This document shows, one piece after another, positions 53,141 to 62,331 of a stretch of DNA of 64,000 nucleotides. A model generated the notes under the pieces. That model was given only the letters and a program-made list of their open reading frames with translations. It was not told where the DNA came from and made no database searches. How positions within the stretch are numbered: position 1 is the stretch's first letter; the number at the start of each line of letters is the position of its first letter. Made by a program: the position numbers and the translations under genes. Source of the DNA: Sphingobacterium daejeonense (GTDB lineage Bacteria > Bacteroidota > Bacteroidia > Sphingobacteriales > Sphingobacteriaceae); contig NZ_LR590470.1 of the NCBI RefSeq assembly GCF_901472535.1, positions 1,240,001 through 1,304,000 on the forward strand, written 5' to 3'.

Positions 53141-54703
53141 TTATTCCTCTTGCTCTTTTACTCTTTTCAGGTCCAAATCATGGAAATCAAAAGAAAAATC
53201 CGTCAATGGGGATACTGCTTTCATTTTGATACTATTTGCTTTTCCTTGTTCATCCAAACTGAAGTTTACATAAGAGTCTGCATTCATGCTTCGGTCATTC
53301 CAGGCAGCGACAAATGTATTGCCCTCTAAATAATGCATCTTTCCCTGCAGCTGCGGTGATCTCGCAGATTTAAAATATAATTGCCCAGTTCTTTCCATTA
53401 CCTCAATTTCGCCAAACCATGGGTCTTTATATTTTCCCAAGTATGGAGAGAAGTCAATTTTTTGCTTTTGATTTTTAATTTTTGCCCAAACCTTGTCAGT
53501 AACCTCATCACCTTCTCCTTGGTTGGATTTTTCCATCGCAGAATATTCTTTTAGCCTGTCAGTTCCCTTGATTCCAAAATAAGAATCCTTGAGCTGGTTG
53601 GTGATCGTTGTAAATGCATACCCGCTTTGTTGGTTTGTCAATACGATTATGCCAATTTTCATCTCTGGGATCATTGTTACCTGTGTTACCATTCCTCCCA
53701 AACCACCCGTGTGCTCGGCTACAAAATATCCTTTCTGATCGCTGAGAAAAAATCCTAGTCCATAACCAAAAAAATGTGTGTTATAGGGTGTTGAGCCTTT
53801 TATAACTGTTTGTAGAGTCATCAATTCTCTTAAGGTCTTCTTGGATATGAGTTGTTTCTCCAAATTGTCGACGTATTTTCCTTCGTTTAATATCATGGTT
53901 ACCCATTTGCTCATATCTTCCACACTGCTGTTTATGCCTCCCGCTGCATTTGTTGTTTCGCTGAGGCTCCTGGCGATAGTCTGCAATTTTCCGTCTACAG
54001 GAACATGTGCGTCAATAATATTCTCCTTGGATTTCAATCTGCTCAATGATGCAGCAGAGTTGGTCATGCCCAAAACATTCATTATTTTTTGTTCGATAAA
54101 TTCTTCCCAAGACATTCCTGAGGCTCTCTTCAAAACCTCGCCAGCAACAATGTATAGTAAGTTGTCATAGTCAAATTTTGTTCTGAAGCTGGAAACGGGC
54201 TTTAGATACCTAAGATTATGGATTACTTCCACTGTACTGAAATTGGCTGAATCCGGCCAAAACATCAGATCTCCAGCGCCCAATCCAAGTCCTGATCGGT
54301 GAGTCAACAAGTCGCGAACAGTAAATTCTGATGTGACATAAGGGTCATACATCCTGAACTCAGGTATGAAATCAACGACTTTGCTATCCCATGTTAACTT
54401 TCCTTCATCCACCAACATACCTAGCGCAAATGCAGTGAATGCTTTGCTATTAGAAGCAATGGCAAATGAAGTGTTTGAATCAACAGGTTTTTCTGTGTTG
54501 ATTGATCTTATTCCATAACCTTTTGAATGGATTACTTTTCCATCTTTTATAATTCCAACTGCAATTCCAGGAACATTAAATGCTGTCATTGTTTTTTGAA
54601 CCAAATCGTCAATTTCTTTTGTGGTAGGATCTTGAGCAAAGGTCGTAAGAGCAATTCCTATCGCTAAAAACAATGAAATTATTTCTTTATAGTGCTTATT
54701 CAT
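53141..54703 (-). CDS. serine hydrolase, class C beta-lactamase family
   Basis: The 520-residue exported protein has a signal peptide ending F-A-Q, then the penicillin-binding fold motifs: S-x-x-K (S-N-S-K, after A-I-A), Y-x-N (F-D-Y-D-N) and H-T-G-G near residue 330. The C-terminal 100 residues form a DUF3471-like beta domain. Most relatives are esterases or D-aminopeptidases, not resistance enzymes, and there is no evidence of antibiotic hydrolysis here. It is monocistronic. Confidence 0.9.
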   Translation of the reverse strand: MNKHYKEIISLFLAIGIALTTFAQDPTTKEIDDLVQKTMTAFNVPGIAVGIIKDGKVIHSKGYGIRSINTEKPVDSNTSFAIASNSKAFTAFALGMLVDEGKLTWDSKVVDFIPEFRMYDPYVTSEFTVRDLLTHRSGLGLGAGDLMFWPDSANFSTVEVIHNLRYLKPVSSFRTKFDYDNLLYIVAGEVLKRASGMSWEEFIEQKIMNVLGMTNSAASLSRLKSKENIIDAHVPVDGKLQTIARSLSETTNAAGGINSSVEDMSKWVTMILNEGKYVDNLEKQLISKKTLRELMTLQTVIKGSTPYNTHFFGYGLGFFLSDQKGYFVAEHTGGLGGMVTQVTMIPEMKIGIIVLTNQQSGYAFTTITNQLKDSYFGIKGTDRLKEYSAMEKSNQGEGDEVTDKVWAKIKNQKQKIDFSPYLGKYKDPWFGEIEVMERTGQLYFKSARSPQLQGKMHYLEGNTFVAAWNDRSMNADSYVNFSLDEQGKANSIKMKAVSPLTDFSFDFHDLDLKRVKEQEE

Positions 54704-55274: not shown

Positions 55275-55616
55275 ATGAATCAAGACTCATTAGTAAAGGC
55301 ATGTATTGATGAAACCCAGAAATGTGCAGTTGCATGTTTGGAATGTGCACAGACATGTTTAAACGAAAAAGATTTAGAGATGCTACGCGAATGTATCAAG
55401 ACCGATTTAGAATGCGCTGAAATTTGCGAGGCGACGTCTAAACTTTTAATTATGGATAGTAGCTCCAGTAAAGAACTTGTTAAAATATGCTTATCCATTT
55501 GTGAAGCATGTGCTGCTGAATGCGAAAAACATGCTGAACATGGAATGGAGCATTGTAGAAAATGTGCTGAAGCGTGTAGAAAATGTGCCGATGCTTGTAG
55601 GAAATTAGTCGCTTAA
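55275..55616 (+). CDS. four-helix-bundle copper-binding protein (DUF326/Csp-like)
   Basis: The 113-residue protein has 15 cysteines in helical C-x-x-C and C-x-x-x-C spacing (for example C-A-V-A-C-L-E-C, C-L-S-I-C-E-A-C-A-A-E-C and C-R-K-C-A-E-A-C-R-K-C). This is the pattern of the copper storage proteins that bind many Cu(I) ions inside a four-helix bundle. There is no signal peptide, so it is cytosolic. A ribosome site AAAGGAG precedes the ATG. It is single, with its own terminator. Confidence 0.92.
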   Translation: MNQDSLVKACIDETQKCAVACLECAQTCLNEKDLEMLRECIKTDLECAEICEATSKLLIMDSSSSKELVKICLSICEACAAECEKHAEHGMEHCRKCAEACRKCADACRKLVA

Positions 55617-55790: not shown

Positions 55791-56210
55791 ATGATTACTA
55801 AGAACATACTAGTTGATTCTGCCTTAATTGGAACTGTCCACTTTTATGCCTATGTATTCAATACTGATGATGGTGTTATAGGTTTTGGATTATTTCCCAA
55901 TGATGGGGCACGTCCCATTTGTTATCTTTTGAATAGACAAGGAAATAAAGTTACGCTTCATTTTGATGAAGACATTATTTTATATATCTGTCAGCAAAGC
56001 CGGTTCTCCACTATGGAGAAAAGGACGCTCTTCAAAGAATTTCTTGATTATGCCACCAAAATGGAAAAGAAAGCTGCACGTTTGGTATTTAGGGATGTCA
56101 AGGTAAACTTTTTAGCTGATTCAAGAGAAATGGTCAAATATAAGAGATTGTATATTCACTATACTGACCAATTTTCTTCCTCTAAAAATAGTACATTATT
56201 TGCCGATTAA
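55791..56210 (+). CDS. hypothetical protein
   Basis: The protein has about 139 residues from the ATG at 55791 (a TTG 36 nt up is in frame but weaker). Strands V-D-S-A-L-I-G-T-V-H-F-Y-A-Y-V-F and G-V-I-G-F-G-L-F-P-N-D-G-A-R-P lead into a helical C-terminal half with K-R-T-L-F-K-E-F-L-D-Y. No family is recognised. The stop overlaps the MocR stop by 4 nt, convergent. Confidence 0.55.
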   Translation: MITKNILVDSALIGTVHFYAYVFNTDDGVIGFGLFPNDGARPICYLLNRQGNKVTLHFDEDIILYICQQSRFSTMEKRTLFKEFLDYATKMEKKAARLVFRDVKVNFLADSREMVKYKRLYIHYTDQFSSSKNSTLFAD

Positions 56211-57691
56211 GCCTGTATTTGTTCTGCTGATAATTTAAGAATCTTTATTATTTTTTCTATCTCCATTAGATTTAGATTACCAAAGCCAATTCGCATGGCC
56301 TGAATGTTCTTGTGCTGGTAAAGTAAGGTTTTTGGTATAAAGAGGTTGTTTCTTGCAGCTTGTTGACTCAATCTGAAGAGGTTTATCTTATTGCGCCAGC
56401 GAATCCAAAATGCTAGACCTCCATTTGGTATTTGGAAATCGATCACGTTGCCCAATTCTTTGCTCAGCTGAACAGCCATAAAGTCTCTTCTTTCTTTGTA
56501 TACCTTCAATGATTTTTTTAAATGCCTGTGAATTGCGCCTTCTTCGATCATTTCTCCTAATGCTTGCTCCATTAAAACATCTCCTTGTCGATCTATTATT
56601 CCCAATAATTTTCTCATTTCAATCATGAGGTTTTCAGGAGCGACTATAAAACCCGTCCGGAACCCTGGAGCTAAAGATTTGCCGAATGATCCTACATAAA
56701 TTACCATTCCATTCCGGTCAGCAGTTGCCAATGGGAGCAAGGGTTGTTTGTCAAATTGAAAGTCATAATCATGGTCATCTTCTACGATAACAAATCCGTA
56801 TCGCTGTGCTAATTGCAAAAGACGCATTCGTTTTTGTGCACTCAGGCTAACGGTAGTTGGATAATGTTGCTGGGCGGTGATGTAGACCATTCGGATGGGT
56901 CTTGATTTGCAGAGCATTTCCAAGGCATCAAGGTCAATGCCATCATCTTCAATAGGTACTGTGAGAATTTTACTTCCTGATTTTTGGAAAATCATATTTG
57001 CAGCGAAATAACTCAGGTCAGCCACAACAACATAGTCATTCTCAGAAAGCAAAATCTCCGAAATTATAAAGAGACTCATCTCAATGCTTCTACTGATGAG
57101 GAGATTGTTTTTGTTGATTTTGAGTGCTCTTGATCCATGTAGATAATCTACCATCTGCTCTTTGAAAAACTCCGATCCTTCTTGGTTGTAATACCCCATT
57201 TTTTCCCTATTGCTCTTTCTTCTCACATTGGTCCTATAGAATCTGGAATGGTCTTCAATTTGCGTCAGCCAAATATCAGGTGAGCCATCATTCAGGATAT
57301 ATTCGCAATCGGTATGTTCAAAAGGGCTGTCTAAAAGAATTGATTTCTTGAATTCATACCCGGTTTTAATAGGGTAGGACGAATTTGAAGCTTCCAAGTT
57401 TTTTAAGCTCGGTAATTCGGAAGTAACGTATGTTCCTTTATTGGGTTTTACTTCAACCCACCCTTGAGCAAATAGTTCCTCGTATGCTGCAGTAATAGTG
57501 TTTCTGTGTACTTGTAGCAATTCTCCTAAAGCTCTGCTTCCCAGTAGTTTTGTTCCAGGTGAAAGATTTCCCTTCGAAATGGCTTGAACAAATTGATTAA
57601 CTATCTGAAGATAGATAGGCGATGTATTTTCCCTGTCTATTTCAATAAAACTTTTAAATGGTATTTCAACCGGACTATTCATATTCTTCAA
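56207..57691 (-). CDS. MocR-type regulator (GntR helix-turn-helix plus aminotransferase domain)
   Basis: The 494-residue PLP-dependent regulator has an N-terminal GntR winged helix (I-Y-L-Q-I-V-N-Q-F-V-Q-A-I-S-K-G, V-H-R-N-T-I-T-A-A-Y-E-E-L) and a fold-type I aminotransferase domain with E-D-D-H-D-Y-D-F-Q-F and the PLP lysine in G-S-F-G-K-S-L-A-P-G-F-R-T-G. Its start is 55 bp from a divergent biotin operon, whose enzymes BioF and BioA are also PLP enzymes. Local control of that operon is likely; no biotin-sensing MocR is known to me. Confidence 0.9.
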   Translation of the reverse strand: MKNMNSPVEIPFKSFIEIDRENTSPIYLQIVNQFVQAISKGNLSPGTKLLGSRALGELLQVHRNTITAAYEELFAQGWVEVKPNKGTYVTSELPSLKNLEASNSSYPIKTGYEFKKSILLDSPFEHTDCEYILNDGSPDIWLTQIEDHSRFYRTNVRRKSNREKMGYYNQEGSEFFKEQMVDYLHGSRALKINKNNLLISRSIEMSLFIISEILLSENDYVVVADLSYFAANMIFQKSGSKILTVPIEDDGIDLDALEMLCKSRPIRMVYITAQQHYPTTVSLSAQKRMRLLQLAQRYGFVIVEDDHDYDFQFDKQPLLPLATADRNGMVIYVGSFGKSLAPGFRTGFIVAPENLMIEMRKLLGIIDRQGDVLMEQALGEMIEEGAIHRHLKKSLKVYKERRDFMAVQLSKELGNVIDFQIPNGGLAFWIRWRNKINLFRLSQQAARNNLFIPKTLLYQHKNIQAMRIGFGNLNLMEIEKIIKILKLSAEQIQA

Positions 57692-57701
57692 TCTGGCACC
57701 C

Positions 57702-57730
57702 TTGTACCTGCCGGCAAGGTAGTATTTTTG
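57702..57730 (+). promoter_or_regulatory. biotin operon promoter with palindromic operator
   Basis: TTG (57702-57704) and TATTTTTG (57723-57730) are 18 nt apart, a good Bacteroidota promoter. The spacer is nearly filled by TACCTGCCGGCAAGGTA (57705-57721), a GCCGGC-centred near-palindrome, and CCTTG (57700-57704) mirrors CAAGG (57715-57719). It is a likely repressor site for the divergent MocR protein. Confidence 0.6.
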
Positions 57731-57746: not shown

Positions 57747-58379
57747 ATGAAAACAATTCTAAATAAAATTGTAGCAGATCAAATTACACACTGCAAATGG
57801 CTAAACACTTTATCCTTTATGGAGAATGCTGGTGCAAGAAAGATTTCAGCATGCGAGGACAAGGTGAAAACAGGCATTATACAATTGAAGCATGCCGCAG
57901 AGGAACATCGTCATGCCTATTATCTGAAGAAACAAATTGCTAAACTGGACTGTTCTGGATTTGACTATTATGAACCTTCCAGTTTGATAGGAGGTCAATC
58001 CTCTCAACAATATTTACATCGACTAGATGTAAAAACATCCCGATATATAAAAGAACATTTCAATCTTTATGGACAGGAACTCAAGTATGCAGCGTATTTA
58101 TTTGTTACCTACGCAATTGAAGTGAGAGCAGATGAATTGTATCCTATTTATCAAGATGTATTAACTGAGCATGCTTCAAAGGTAGTTGTAAAATCTATTA
58201 TTCTGGAAGAAGAAGGTCATTTGGAGGAGATGATTAATCAATTGAATGATTTTGATCCATCATGGGAAAAGCATGCCAAAGAAATACTTTTAATAGAATC
58301 AGAATTATTTGATAATTGGCTGATTTCAATCGCCAAAGAACTTGGATTCAATGAATATTCTGCAATCCCGGCTTCGTGA
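57747..58379 (+). CDS. ferritin-like diiron protein heading the biotin operon
   Basis: The 210-residue all-helical protein has a full carboxylate-bridged diiron ligand set: E26 (F-M-E-N-A-G), E53-x-x-H56 (E-H-R-H), E125 (A-I-E-V-R) and E155-x-x-H158 (E-E-G-H), spaced as in ferritin-like oxygenases. There is no signal peptide. Its last 29 nt overlap bioF, so it is translated with it. No bioC or bioH is in the cluster. A role in making or oxidising the pimelate precursor, as BioI does in Bacillus by P450 chemistry, is a reasonable guess. Alternatives are a storage or auxiliary oxygenase. Confidence 0.8.
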   Translation: MKTILNKIVADQITHCKWLNTLSFMENAGARKISACEDKVKTGIIQLKHAAEEHRHAYYLKKQIAKLDCSGFDYYEPSSLIGGQSSQQYLHRLDVKTSRYIKEHFNLYGQELKYAAYLFVTYAIEVRADELYPIYQDVLTEHASKVVVKSIILEEEGHLEEMINQLNDFDPSWEKHAKEILLIESELFDNWLISIAKELGFNEYSAIPAS

Positions 58380-59465
58380 TAAATTAAATAAAAGGCAGGA
58401 GGAAGGAGGATTAAGACAGTTACAGAAAGAAAGGGATGGGATTGATATCTATTCAAATGATTATTTAGGATTTGCCACGAGCAAGGAGTTAAATTCTAGA
58501 ATACTGAATTTGCTGAATGGCCATGCGGAGTCCATTCAAGGATCCACGGGCTCAAGATTGATTTCAGGCAACTCAGATTTTACGATGGAGGTTGAAGGCT
58601 TTATTGCTGCAAAACACCAGGTTGAATCATCGTTATTATTTCCTTCCGGATATCTTGCCAACCAAACTCTTTTTTCTATTCTTCCCGCCAAGAATGATAC
58701 GATAATTCTGGATGAAAAGGTACATAGGTCTGTATATGACGGCTGTAGGTTGTCGCTTTCAAATCGGTGGAAATTCAGGCACAATGATTTGAACCATTTG
58801 GAAGATCTATTGAAAAAAAGCAACGGGCAGGTTTGGATTGGGGTTGAAAGTCTTTATTCGATGGATGGTGACTTTGCTCCACTTCCTGAAATCGCGGCAC
58901 TCTGTGAAAAATTCGCGGCAGCATTGATTGTAGATGAGGCACATGCTATTGGAACCTTTGGGGTAGGATTTGTGAATATGTTTGGCTTACAAAACAGGTG
59001 TTTGCAACCCTAGTTACTTATGGAAAGGCTATGGGTCAGTCTGGAGCAGCTGTTTTAGGTTCAAAAGTCCTTATAGATTACTTGATCAATTATGCGCCAG
59101 GATTTATATACAGTACAGGAATGCCAGATTTTCAAGCCCTTTGTGTTCAAGAATCATATCATTTCCTTGATGAAAACGACCTGATAGTTAATAAATTACA
59201 AGGTAATATTAAGAGGTTTGGTCGTGCGATGGGTTTATCTATGGAATCCTTTCAAAGTCCGATATTTCCTATTCGATTTAAAGATGTTGGCATCATGGAA
59301 AAAGCATTAAGGGACTTAACAAATAATGGTTTTTTAAGTTATGGTATTAAAACACCTACCGTACCTAAGGGTGAAGAAATGATACGTGTATGTGTTCATT
59401 CTTTTAATTCGGAAAAGGAAATTGATTTATTGGCTGATATTTTAAAAAGATATATGGATGAGTAA
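58351..59465 (+). pseudogene. bioF: 8-amino-7-oxononanoate synthase (BioF), -1 frameshift
   Basis: BioF joins pimeloyl-CoA/ACP and alanine to KAPA using PLP. The first frame holds D-I-Y-S-N-D-Y-L-G-F, G-S-T-G-S-R-L-I-S-G-N and D-E-A-H-A-I-G-T-F-G. It breaks in C-A-G-G-T-G near 58995-58998 and the next frame resumes V-F-A-T-L-V-T-Y-G-K-A-M-G (with the PLP lysine). One base is missing, probably an A or G. The full length is about 371 residues. The ATG at 58351 is favoured over a TTG 9 nt up. It is probably intact in life. Confidence 0.9.
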
Positions 59466-60081
59466 GAGATATTTTGTGACAGGCATTGGCACGTCAGTAG
59501 GCAAGACCATTGCTTGTGCTGCCCTGGTCAAGCTATGGGATGCGGCATATTGGAAACCAATTCAATCTGGTGATTTGGAAAGCAGTGACAGCATGATGAT
59601 GAGTTCTCTGCTAAATAATCAAGTATTGATATATCCTGAAAGATATAAATTAAATACTGCGGTATCTCCGCATTATTCTGCTGAAATAGATGAGGTGTCA
59701 ATAGAGTTGAACGATTTTAAATTGCCTGATGATATCGGAAATCTAATTGTTGAGGGAGCTGGGGGAATGTTTGTTCCGATAAATGACAAAGAATTTATCA
59801 TTGATTTAGCGGAGCATTTAGATCTCCCTATTATCCTCGTATGTTCTGATTACCTAGGTAGCATAAATCATAGTTTATTATCCTTTCATAGTTTAGAAGA
59901 ACGAGGTGTTGCTGTTGAATACATTTTTTTGAACGGGAGTTTCAAAGAATCAACTAAACGAATTTTAATCAAAAATAAACCAAAGGGAAGTAAAGTCATT
60001 GAATTCCCGGAGTTAGAGGACATAAGTTCAAATGGCTTGGAGAAGGCCATGAAAAATTTGAAAATACATGATGGAAATTAA
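59458..60081 (+). CDS. bioD: dethiobiotin synthetase
   Basis: BioD closes the ureido ring of dethiobiotin from DAPA, CO2 and ATP. The 207-residue protein has the P-loop [12 protein letters not shown] at residues 6-17, W-K-P-I-Q-S-G and [12 protein letters not shown]. The start overlaps bioF by 8 nt and the stop overlaps bioB, a tight operon. Confidence 0.95.
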
Positions 60082-61075
60082 AGACAAGAAAGCATTAAGG
60101 CACGACTGGACTAAAGAAGAGCTATTGGAAATTTACAATAAGCCATTATTGGAATTGGTTTATATGGCGGCAAGTGTTCATCGTGAATGGCACAATCCGG
60201 AGGAGGTTCAAATTTCGACCTTATTGTCTGTCAAGACTGGTGGCTGTCCGGAAGATTGTTCTTATTGTGGGCAGGCTGCACGGTATCATACAGATATTAA
60301 AGTTCAGGCCTTATTACCTACCGAGACTGTTTTGGCACATGCTCAAAAAGCTAAAGACAGTGGTTCTTCAAGGTTCTGTATGGCGGCAGCTTGGCGTGAA
60401 GTTCGTGATAACCGAGATTTTGACCGTATTATAGAGATGGTGAAAGGTGTGAACGAGATGGGTTTGGAAGTTTGCTGTACTTTGGGGATGCTCACTGAAA
60501 GTCAAGCGCAGCGTCTGCAAGAAGCAGGATTATATGCCTATAACCATAATTTAGATACTTCGGAGGAATTTTATGATGAGATCATTTCAACACGCAGATT
60601 TGATAATAGGATAGAAACCATAAAAAATGTACGCAAGGCTGGGATAACGGTTTGTTCTGGGGGAATAATCGGGCTAGGAGAGAAGCCTGAGGACCGGATA
60701 TCTATGTTGCGGACTTTGGCAAATATGGAGAAACACCCAGAATCTGTCCCTATTAATGCCTTGGCGCGAGTTGCGGGTACACCATTGGAGTTTTTGCCTA
60801 AGGTTGATGTTTGGGAGATGGTGAGGATGATTGCTACGGCAAGAATAGTTCTTCCGTCTTCAATGGTTCGGCTGAGTGCTGGAAGAATTGAAATGAGTGA
60901 GGTCGAACAGGCTTGGTGTTTTATGGCAGGTGCCAATTCAATTTTTACGGGTGAGCGGGAGACCTTGTTGGTTACTCCAAATCCAGGAGTGGATGAAGAT
61001 ATGTCGATGTTGAGTAATTTGGGTTTGAGGCCGATGGTTGTTAAGCGGGAGGCATTTTGCAACAGCAGCTTATAG
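60068..61075 (+). CDS. bioB: biotin synthase (radical SAM)
   Basis: BioB inserts sulfur into dethiobiotin. The 335-residue protein has the radical SAM cluster box [10 protein letters not shown], then [18 protein letters not shown] and G-G-I-I-G-L-G-E, and R-L-S-A-G-R at the [2Fe-2S] site. The start overlaps bioD by 14 nt. Sulfur and iron for its clusters come from general assembly proteins such as the iscS/iscA-type genes at 17-19 kb. Confidence 0.97.
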
Positions 61076-62331
61076 ATCGGGATTTAGCGGTCAATTGGCA
61101 TCCTTATTCACAGATGAAAACAAGTAATCACCTCCCAATTGCTAGAGGAGAGGGTGCTAATCTGTATGATTATCAAGGAAATCGGTATCTAGATATGGTA
61201 AGTTCATGGTGGGTTACCATTCATGGGCATGCAAATTCGTATATTGCGTCTAAAGTTTATGAGCAGCTAAGCACTTTAGAGCAAGTTATTTTTGCTGGTT
61301 TCACACATCTACCTGCGATTACCTTGTCAGAGCGTTTACTTCAGCTTTTGCCATTGAATCAAAAGAAGGCATTTTTTACCGATAATGGATCCACCGCCGT
61401 AGAGGTTGCCCTGAAAATGTGTATTCAGTTTGCATATAACAATGGAGTTCAGAAGACTAAAATCATAGCTTTTAAGAATGGTTACCACGGGGATACTTTT
61501 GGGGCCATGTCGGTTAGTGAGCGTGGACAGTGGACAGCAGCATTTGCTGATTTGTTATTTGAGGTAATATTTATTGATGCTCCCACCGCAGAGAATCTTG
61601 AATCTATTAAAAAGATAGTTCAGGAACACGCCGAACAAACGGCTTGTTTTATCTATGAACCGTTGGTTCAAGGCGCTGGCGGAATGTTAATGCATCGTGC
61701 AGAGGATTTATCCGAACTCATGTCGTTCTGCAAATCAAAAGGGATTTTATTGATTCAAGATGAAATCTTTGTTGGTTTTGGAAGAACAGGGACCTTGTTT
61801 GCTGCCGATCAGCTGGAGGAAAAACCTGATGTTATGTGTTTTTCAAAAGGGTTGACGGGTGGTACGATGCCATTAGGGATAACGACCTGTACAGAGGAAA
61901 TCTATCAGGCTTTTTATTCGGATGAAAAACGGAAGGCATTGTTTCATGGGCATTCATTTACAGCCAGTCCTATCGCCTGTGCAGCATCATTAGCAAGTTT
62001 GGATTTATTGCTGCAAGATGATTGCCGGTCAAATATCGAAAGAATTTGCAAGAGTCATGCAGCATTTGCGAAAAGATTGATGAAGTCAGAAAAGGTGAGA
62101 AATGTAAGGCAAACAGGGACTATTTTAGCTTTTGATTGGGTCACTGAAAATGAAACCTCATATTTTAATCAGATTCAGGAAAAGCTCTTTATTGTGTTTA
62201 TAAAGAAGGGGATTATATTAAGGCCAATGGGGAATGTACTGTATTTGCTTCCACCGTATTGTATTCAACAAGAAGATTTGGACTATACCTACGAAACGAT
62301 TTTGGAGGTATTGAACAACAACAATATTTAA
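61057..62331 (+). CDS. bioA: adenosylmethionine-8-amino-7-oxononanoate aminotransferase
   Basis: BioA transaminates KAPA to DAPA with S-adenosylmethionine as amino donor. The 424-residue fold-type I enzyme shows [39 protein letters not shown] and the PLP lysine in F-S-K-G-L-T-G-G. The start is TTG at 61057 with GGGAGG a few bases before, overlapping the bioB end by 19 nt. It is the last gene of the operon. Confidence 0.95.

Follow-up and report, generated by a model that had tools for sequence, protein, structure and literature searches.

The first gene of the biotin operon in the window (the whole stretch of 64,000 nucleotides which we have analysed, from Sphingobacterium daejeonense) is almost certainly bioE: judging by its sequence, it should code for an enzyme which cleaves the C7-C8 bond of long-chain acyl-ACP or acyl-CoA for the synthesis of biotin. 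BioE and the BioE-BioL pathway have been reported from Elizabethkingia meningoseptica and from Chryseobacterium (Xu et al., PNAS 2025, doi 10.1073/pnas.2501226122; Zhang et al., Adv Sci, December 2025, PMC12915131). According to the available part of the latter paper, BioE is a ferritin-like diiron oxygenase which cleaves long-chain acyl-ACP/CoA between C7 and C8 in an O2-dependent reaction, so that pimeloyl-ACP/CoA is formed; BioL is a MocR protein which acts as a repressor in this pathway. An earlier note on this DNA had proposed that the gene codes for a diiron oxygenase which cleaves an acyl chain to the C7 unit, and that this would be a new route to pimelate. The first part of the proposal is very probably right: it is supported by orthology to BioE and by an identical numbering of the diiron ligands. 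The second part does not stand, since the BioE-BioL pathway was published in 2025 and bioE was already mapped in families which include the Sphingobacteriaceae (PMC12915131, available part).

By analogy with its orthologues, we infer that this particular protein catalyses the BioE reaction. With O2 and electrons from a donor it would cleave a C14–C18 acyl-ACP or acyl-CoA between C7 and C8. The product would be pimeloyl-ACP/CoA, which BioF, BioA, BioD and BioB from the same operon would then convert to biotin.

All six ligands claimed in the earlier note are present in the 210-residue translation: E26, E53xxH56, E125 and E155xxH158. They coincide with those published for EmBioE, which are E26, E53, H56, E125, E155 and H158 (PMC12915131, available part). 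For comparison we have used 380 confirmed stretches in public genomes, with up to 6 kb on each side, and kept the best 80, so that our counts refer to the closest relatives. Outside these 80 are L010 and L011, which are apparent duplicates of L021 and L023, and L020, a fragment of bioE in genome G034. The six ligands are invariant in all the best 80 of 380 relatives, therefore their presence is more than a chance coincidence. The residues which form the lipid pocket in the published EmBioE (L22, Y117, I124 and L131) are also present here and equally invariant in the same 80. The CoA-facing patch of EmBioE (F24, R31, K32, K46, R87, Q88 and H91) is identical in five of its seven positions; K46 and R87 are replaced by Q. 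Among the best 80 of 380, position 46 is Q in 68 relatives, and position 87 is R in 52, K in 19 and Q in only two. Because of these two differences the substrate preference of the window BioE should not be assumed to be that of EmBioE. The closest named relative among the best 80 of 380 is Sphingobacterium mizutaii, with 74% identity in the tblastn segment and 72% over 206 aligned residues. With the protein at the equivalent locus position in Chryseobacterium indologenes the identity is 63%, based on 202 aligned residues. Scans with Pfam and NCBIfam gave no match above cut-off, thus the window protein is recognised by no model in these two collections; below threshold it weakly resembles encapsulated ferritins (TIGR04535, E 0.056) and a bacterioferritin (E 0.11). 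A search of the PDB by sequence gave no convincing match, and a search of plasmid records gave none.

Table 1 Features of the biotin locus, in positions of the window
Feature	Coordinates	Strand	Product or nature	Details
bioL	56207..57682	-	MocR-family (GntR HTH + PLP aminotransferase-like) predicted repressor	divergent to bioE
conserved bioL-bioE block	57670..57730	.	candidate regulatory block, 61 bp	CCGGACTA-N14-TCTGGCA-N12-CCGGCAA-N5-TATTTTTG
bioE	57747..58379	+	predicted pimeloyl-ACP/CoA-forming ferritin-like diiron oxygenase	ATG start, 210 aa
bioF	58351..59465	+	8-amino-7-oxononanoate synthase	interrupted; pieces 58351-59013 and 58998-59465
bioD	59458..60081	+	dethiobiotin synthetase	TIGR00347 96.7 bits, cut-off 83.3
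bioB	60068..61075	+	biotin synthase	TIGR00433 395 bits, cut-off 225
bioA	61057..62331	+	DAPA aminotransferase	TIGR00508 531 bits, cut-off 405

All the bio genes of the window form a single run, bioE-bioF-bioD-bioB-bioA (Table 1). This is the order given in the earlier note, and bioD, bioB and bioA pass their NCBIfam cut-offs. The overlap of 29 nt which had been reported between bioE and bioF is exact, counted from the ATG of bioF to the end of the bioE frame; bioD and bioB overlap by 14 nt. Such an overlap of bioE and bioF is found in 55 of the 62 relatives which have bioF behind bioE (first-ATG rule), with a length of mostly 8 nt. Two features were missed in the earlier note: the frameshift in bioF and the fact that the divergent MocR-family gene belongs to the unit. 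Further upstream the window has a serine hydrolase with a beta-lactamase fold (PF00144) and a DUF3471 domain (53141-54703), and a small cysteine-rich protein with DUF326 repeats (55275-55616), which we take to be reminiscent of copper-storage proteins.

The bioF gene is split into two frames, which correspond to positions 7–210 and 217–364 of TIGR00858. An alignment with the intact bioF of S. mizutaii shows that one base is lacking near 58995, where there is a short run of A. If the lesion were true, the isolate would be expected to be a biotin auxotroph. A second bioF was looked for in its genome. The cut-off of TIGR00858 (426) had to be dropped as a screen: an intact bioF of the BioE type (L021) reaches 298 bits and one of the bioC type (L131) reaches 391. 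The paralogues were therefore identified one by one. The best is a glycine C-acetyltransferase (TIGR01822, 703 bits, cut-off 493); the next is a serine palmitoyltransferase (contig 1, 3750763-3751838), itself split into frames; the remaining matches have 81 bits or less. No substitute bioF was seen among these bioF-like paralogues.

The gene could thus be an orthologue of bioE in an isolate whose biotin pathway is dead, with bioF truly frameshifted and the operon in decay. This would be compatible with the identity of BioE. Besides the one-base difference and the lack of a substitute among the paralogues, it would agree with the deletion in a congener (G034, see below) in which only a bioE-bioB scar is left. 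However bioE, bioD, bioB and bioA are intact, while the position of the lesion beside a short A run and the split serine palmitoyltransferase point to read errors. Since two long conserved genes, bioF and the serine palmitoyltransferase, are both split, the evidence leans toward an error of assembly or sequencing. We consider a dead pathway rather unlikely.

The link of bioE with biotin genes, on which the earlier note made its proposal depend, is very constant in relatives: another biotin gene is found within the stretch around bioE (up to 6 kb on each side) in 79 of the best 80 of 380, and bioE is linked to bioF in 62 of them. The whole unit bioL-bioE-bioF-bioD-bioB-bioA is found in 60 of the best 80. 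Another 11 have a bioA-bioE pair and six have bioL-bioE-bioB. The other three are single cases: bioL-bioE-bioF in a locus which ends at the contig end (L074), bioEFDBA without bioL (L096) and a bioE with no other bio gene nearby (L072). In Pedobacter and relatives bioE is found behind bioA and without bioL (L062, L045), or alone (L072).

The divergent gene which precedes bioE is, on the evidence of its sequence, the repressor BioL and part of the biotin unit. Its product is 56–63% identical to the BioL which adjoins bioE in Chryseobacterium loci; it has R50 at the published DNA-contact position and a lysine of the Schiff-base type at position 335, which is K340 in EmBioL. Its best NCBIfam match is a PdxR-type MocR, with 300 bits, below the model cut-off of 320. 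Deletion of bioL in Chryseobacterium indologenes leads to biotin auxotrophy, as reported in the available part of PMC12915131.

A block of 61 bp is conserved between bioL and bioE. Its consensus is CCGGAC(C/T)A-N14-A(A/C/G)TGG(C/T)(A/C)-N12-CCGG(A/C/T)(A/T)A-N5-TAnnTTTG, where the last element is the -7 motif of Bacteroidota. The block would be a candidate for the BioL operator together with the promoter of bioE. Of the best 80 of 380 relatives, 63 have the block with exactly these spacings, and one further relative has it with a single spacer off by one base. The copy in the window keeps the spacings and is one base off the search pattern, which is why the pattern search overlooked it. The 16 relatives without the block are the 11 bioA-bioE pairs, the lone bioE of L072 and four loci with a divergent bioL (L022, L066, L084 and L087); in L096 the block is present and bioL is absent from the locus. 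When simple palindromes were looked for between bioL and bioE, none recurred consistently; it is the direct pattern with fixed spacing which matched. Judged by eye, a similar sequence precedes lone bioB genes of congeners (e.g. L123, L124 and L127), and CCGGACTA is found near the start of a BioL-like gene in two clusters of the bioC type (L131 and L132). This BioL-like gene is 37% identical to BioL. The fixed-spacing pattern matched none of the ten regions before bioB in congeners, these examples included.

We have studied the distribution of both C7 routes in 36 genomes of the genus, our own and 35 others; the counts take no account of kinship. An intact bioE is present in 10 of the 36 and a fragment in an eleventh. 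G003 is counted among the intact ones: the internal TAA listed for it is due to a match which runs past the stop of the gene itself. BioC is found at cut-off in nine of the 36 genomes, with 207–234 bits, and BioG is found in the same nine, as the neighbouring gene; two of these clusters were examined at gene level (L131 and L132), and one of the nine genomes (G005) is listed with 7% contamination. The two routes never occur together in the 36 genomes: none of the ten with bioE is among the nine with bioC-bioG. The earlier note had proposed to check whether genomes with the homologue lack bioC; all ten genomes with an intact bioE lack BioC at cut-off. In a sample of 198 genomes which covers the class evenly, bioE is present in seven and BioC in at least two, and none is shared among the matches listed. 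Such a pattern is what one would expect from a replacement of BioC-BioG by BioE.

The gene for biotin synthase, bioB, is found at cut-off in 27 of the 36 genomes: 10 of them have bioE, nine have bioC and eight have neither. In these eight (L123-L130) no bioF, bioD or bioA was found around bioB in stretches of 9–14 kb; such species may only convert dethiobiotin. Of 23 genomes of the same class, 13 have bioB at cut-off and neither bioE nor BioC at cut-off. In L134 and L136 bioB, bioF, bioD and bioA are clustered with no gene for the C7 step seen in the fetched stretch, while L135 ends at the contig end. In the eleventh genome (G034), which has the fragment, there is an open frame of 131 codons (L143, 1085-1477): it begins as bioE, up to residue 54 or so, and continues in the same frame with the last part of bioB (model positions 259–307). 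By its sequence it would be a scar left when most of the biotin operon was deleted.

Taken together, these features allow a wider reading for the genus, S. mizutaii included, to which we give an even chance. The first step of biotin synthesis would be a swappable cassette of two kinds, one with bioE and the other with bioG-bioC, and the bioF which goes with them would differ between the two. Next to either cassette there would be a MocR repressor similar to BioL and a site of the CCGGACTA type. Lone bioB genes would be preceded by sites of this kind as well, so that BioL-type regulators would control three alternative states of the pathway. In this scheme the bioC type is drawn from two clusters and the sites before bioB are those judged by eye.

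The fold of the window BioE is predicted to be ferritin-like and related to that of the cyanobacterial aldehyde-deformylating oxygenases (cADO). A structure prediction and a comparison of the diiron site had been suggested in the earlier note, and the helical, ferritin-like character which it described agrees with the model. The AlphaFold2 model has a mean pLDDT of 92.3 and a pTM of 0.88. Its best match with VIA-align is chain C of 5ux1 (Z 17.1, 2.5 A over 176 residues, 14% identity), followed by 8fhc (Z 16.4); both have aldehyde-deformylating oxygenase (ADO) activity. Proteins of the MiaE type come next, with Z 15.8–15.9. Most cyanobacterial ADOs have Z 12.5–14.4, which is level with the heme-oxygenase-like CADD (14.2), and helical bundles can reach Z values of about 13–14 without close kinship. 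With Foldseek there was no match at E <= 0.001, and AetD, a heme-oxygenase-like enzyme, headed the list. The heme-oxygenase-like diiron (HDO) fold suggested by AetD was considered and rejected, as realignment ranks ADO-type and MiaE-type proteins first: a ferritin-like fold is preferred because the top VIA-align rows are about 3 Z units ahead of HDO proteins such as CADD and because of the ligand pattern.

The weak resemblance to ferritins mentioned above might suggest that the diiron protein is linked to biotin in a supporting role, for instance by storing iron or scavenging oxygen for BioB, and does not form the C7 unit. However its orthologues can stand in for BioC-BioH in E. coli and form pimeloyl-ACP in vitro, and the six ligands are essential in CpBioE (PMC12915131, available part); furthermore none of the 36 genomes of the genus has both bioE and bioC-bioG. 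We consider such a role very improbable and keep the assignment as the C7-forming enzyme.

The earlier note had also claimed that bioC and bioH are absent from the operon. We find that this holds for the whole genome, a single contig of 4.73 Mb to which the family cut-offs were applied throughout. The best match for BioC (TIGR02072) has 56.1 bits, with a cut-off of 184.95, and the best for BioH has 49 bits, with a cut-off of 206.95. Two of the results which the note named as refuting, bioC and bioH elsewhere in the genome and homologues unlinked to biotin genes in relatives, were therefore not borne out. There is no match for BioG in the genome and none for BioW (TIGR01204), for which the controls from B. 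subtilis and M. jannaschii were positive. This search covered BioC, BioH, BioG and BioW; within the operon every gene falls into a family other than the KAS III type of BioZ or the P450 of BioI. The Pfam methyltransferase search of the genome was too general to be of use. That an unrecognised, divergent BioC and an esterase make pimelate while the diiron protein has another job is hardly credible after a search for BioC, BioH, BioG and BioW. The genome does have methyltransferases and alpha/beta hydrolases below cut-off, with at most 56 and 49 bits respectively, but the nine BioC of congeners show by their 207–234 bits what a BioC of this genus reaches, so that one of their kind would be detected, and each has an adjoining BioG, a pair which is not found in this genome.

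A biotin route published in 2025 has thus been recovered independently from the raw sequence and the order of genes, which is also a check on the reasoning of the earlier note. What we add to the published work is modest: the swap of BioE and BioC-BioG within one genus and the scar of an operon deletion in one relative. The exclusion of the two routes, of which that of BioE depends on oxygen, within a single genus offers natural pairs for asking why lineages change from one to the other, and the block of 61 bp is a concrete candidate for the operator of BioL.

If we compare the window with known systems, it shares with EmBioE the six ligands, with identical residue numbers, and the residues of the lipid pocket, both compared through the published positions; it differs by Q at residues 46 and 87, where EmBioE has K and R. 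It shares with the BioE-BioL systems the place of the gene before bioF, the divergent MocR gene bioL and the lack of BioC and BioH at cut-off. The organization is different: here there is one run bioE-F-D-B-A, whereas in the available part of PMC12915131 bioEFD and bioBA are regarded as separate transcription units. The bioF gene of the window is also frameshifted in the assembly. The published search for BioE used a cut of >40% identity and >85% coverage to EmBioE (PMC12915131, available part). As for other enzymes, cADO and ADO-type proteins have the solved folds which are closest to our model (Z 12.5–17.1), but their identity is only 13–16%. According to the same source cADO also has a ferritin-like diiron site and a substrate derived from an acyl chain; however it removes C1 from fatty aldehydes, whereas BioE cuts an acyl thioester between C7 and C8. 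BioI (CYP107H1) is a haem P450 and belongs to a distinct enzyme family (PMC12915131, available part).
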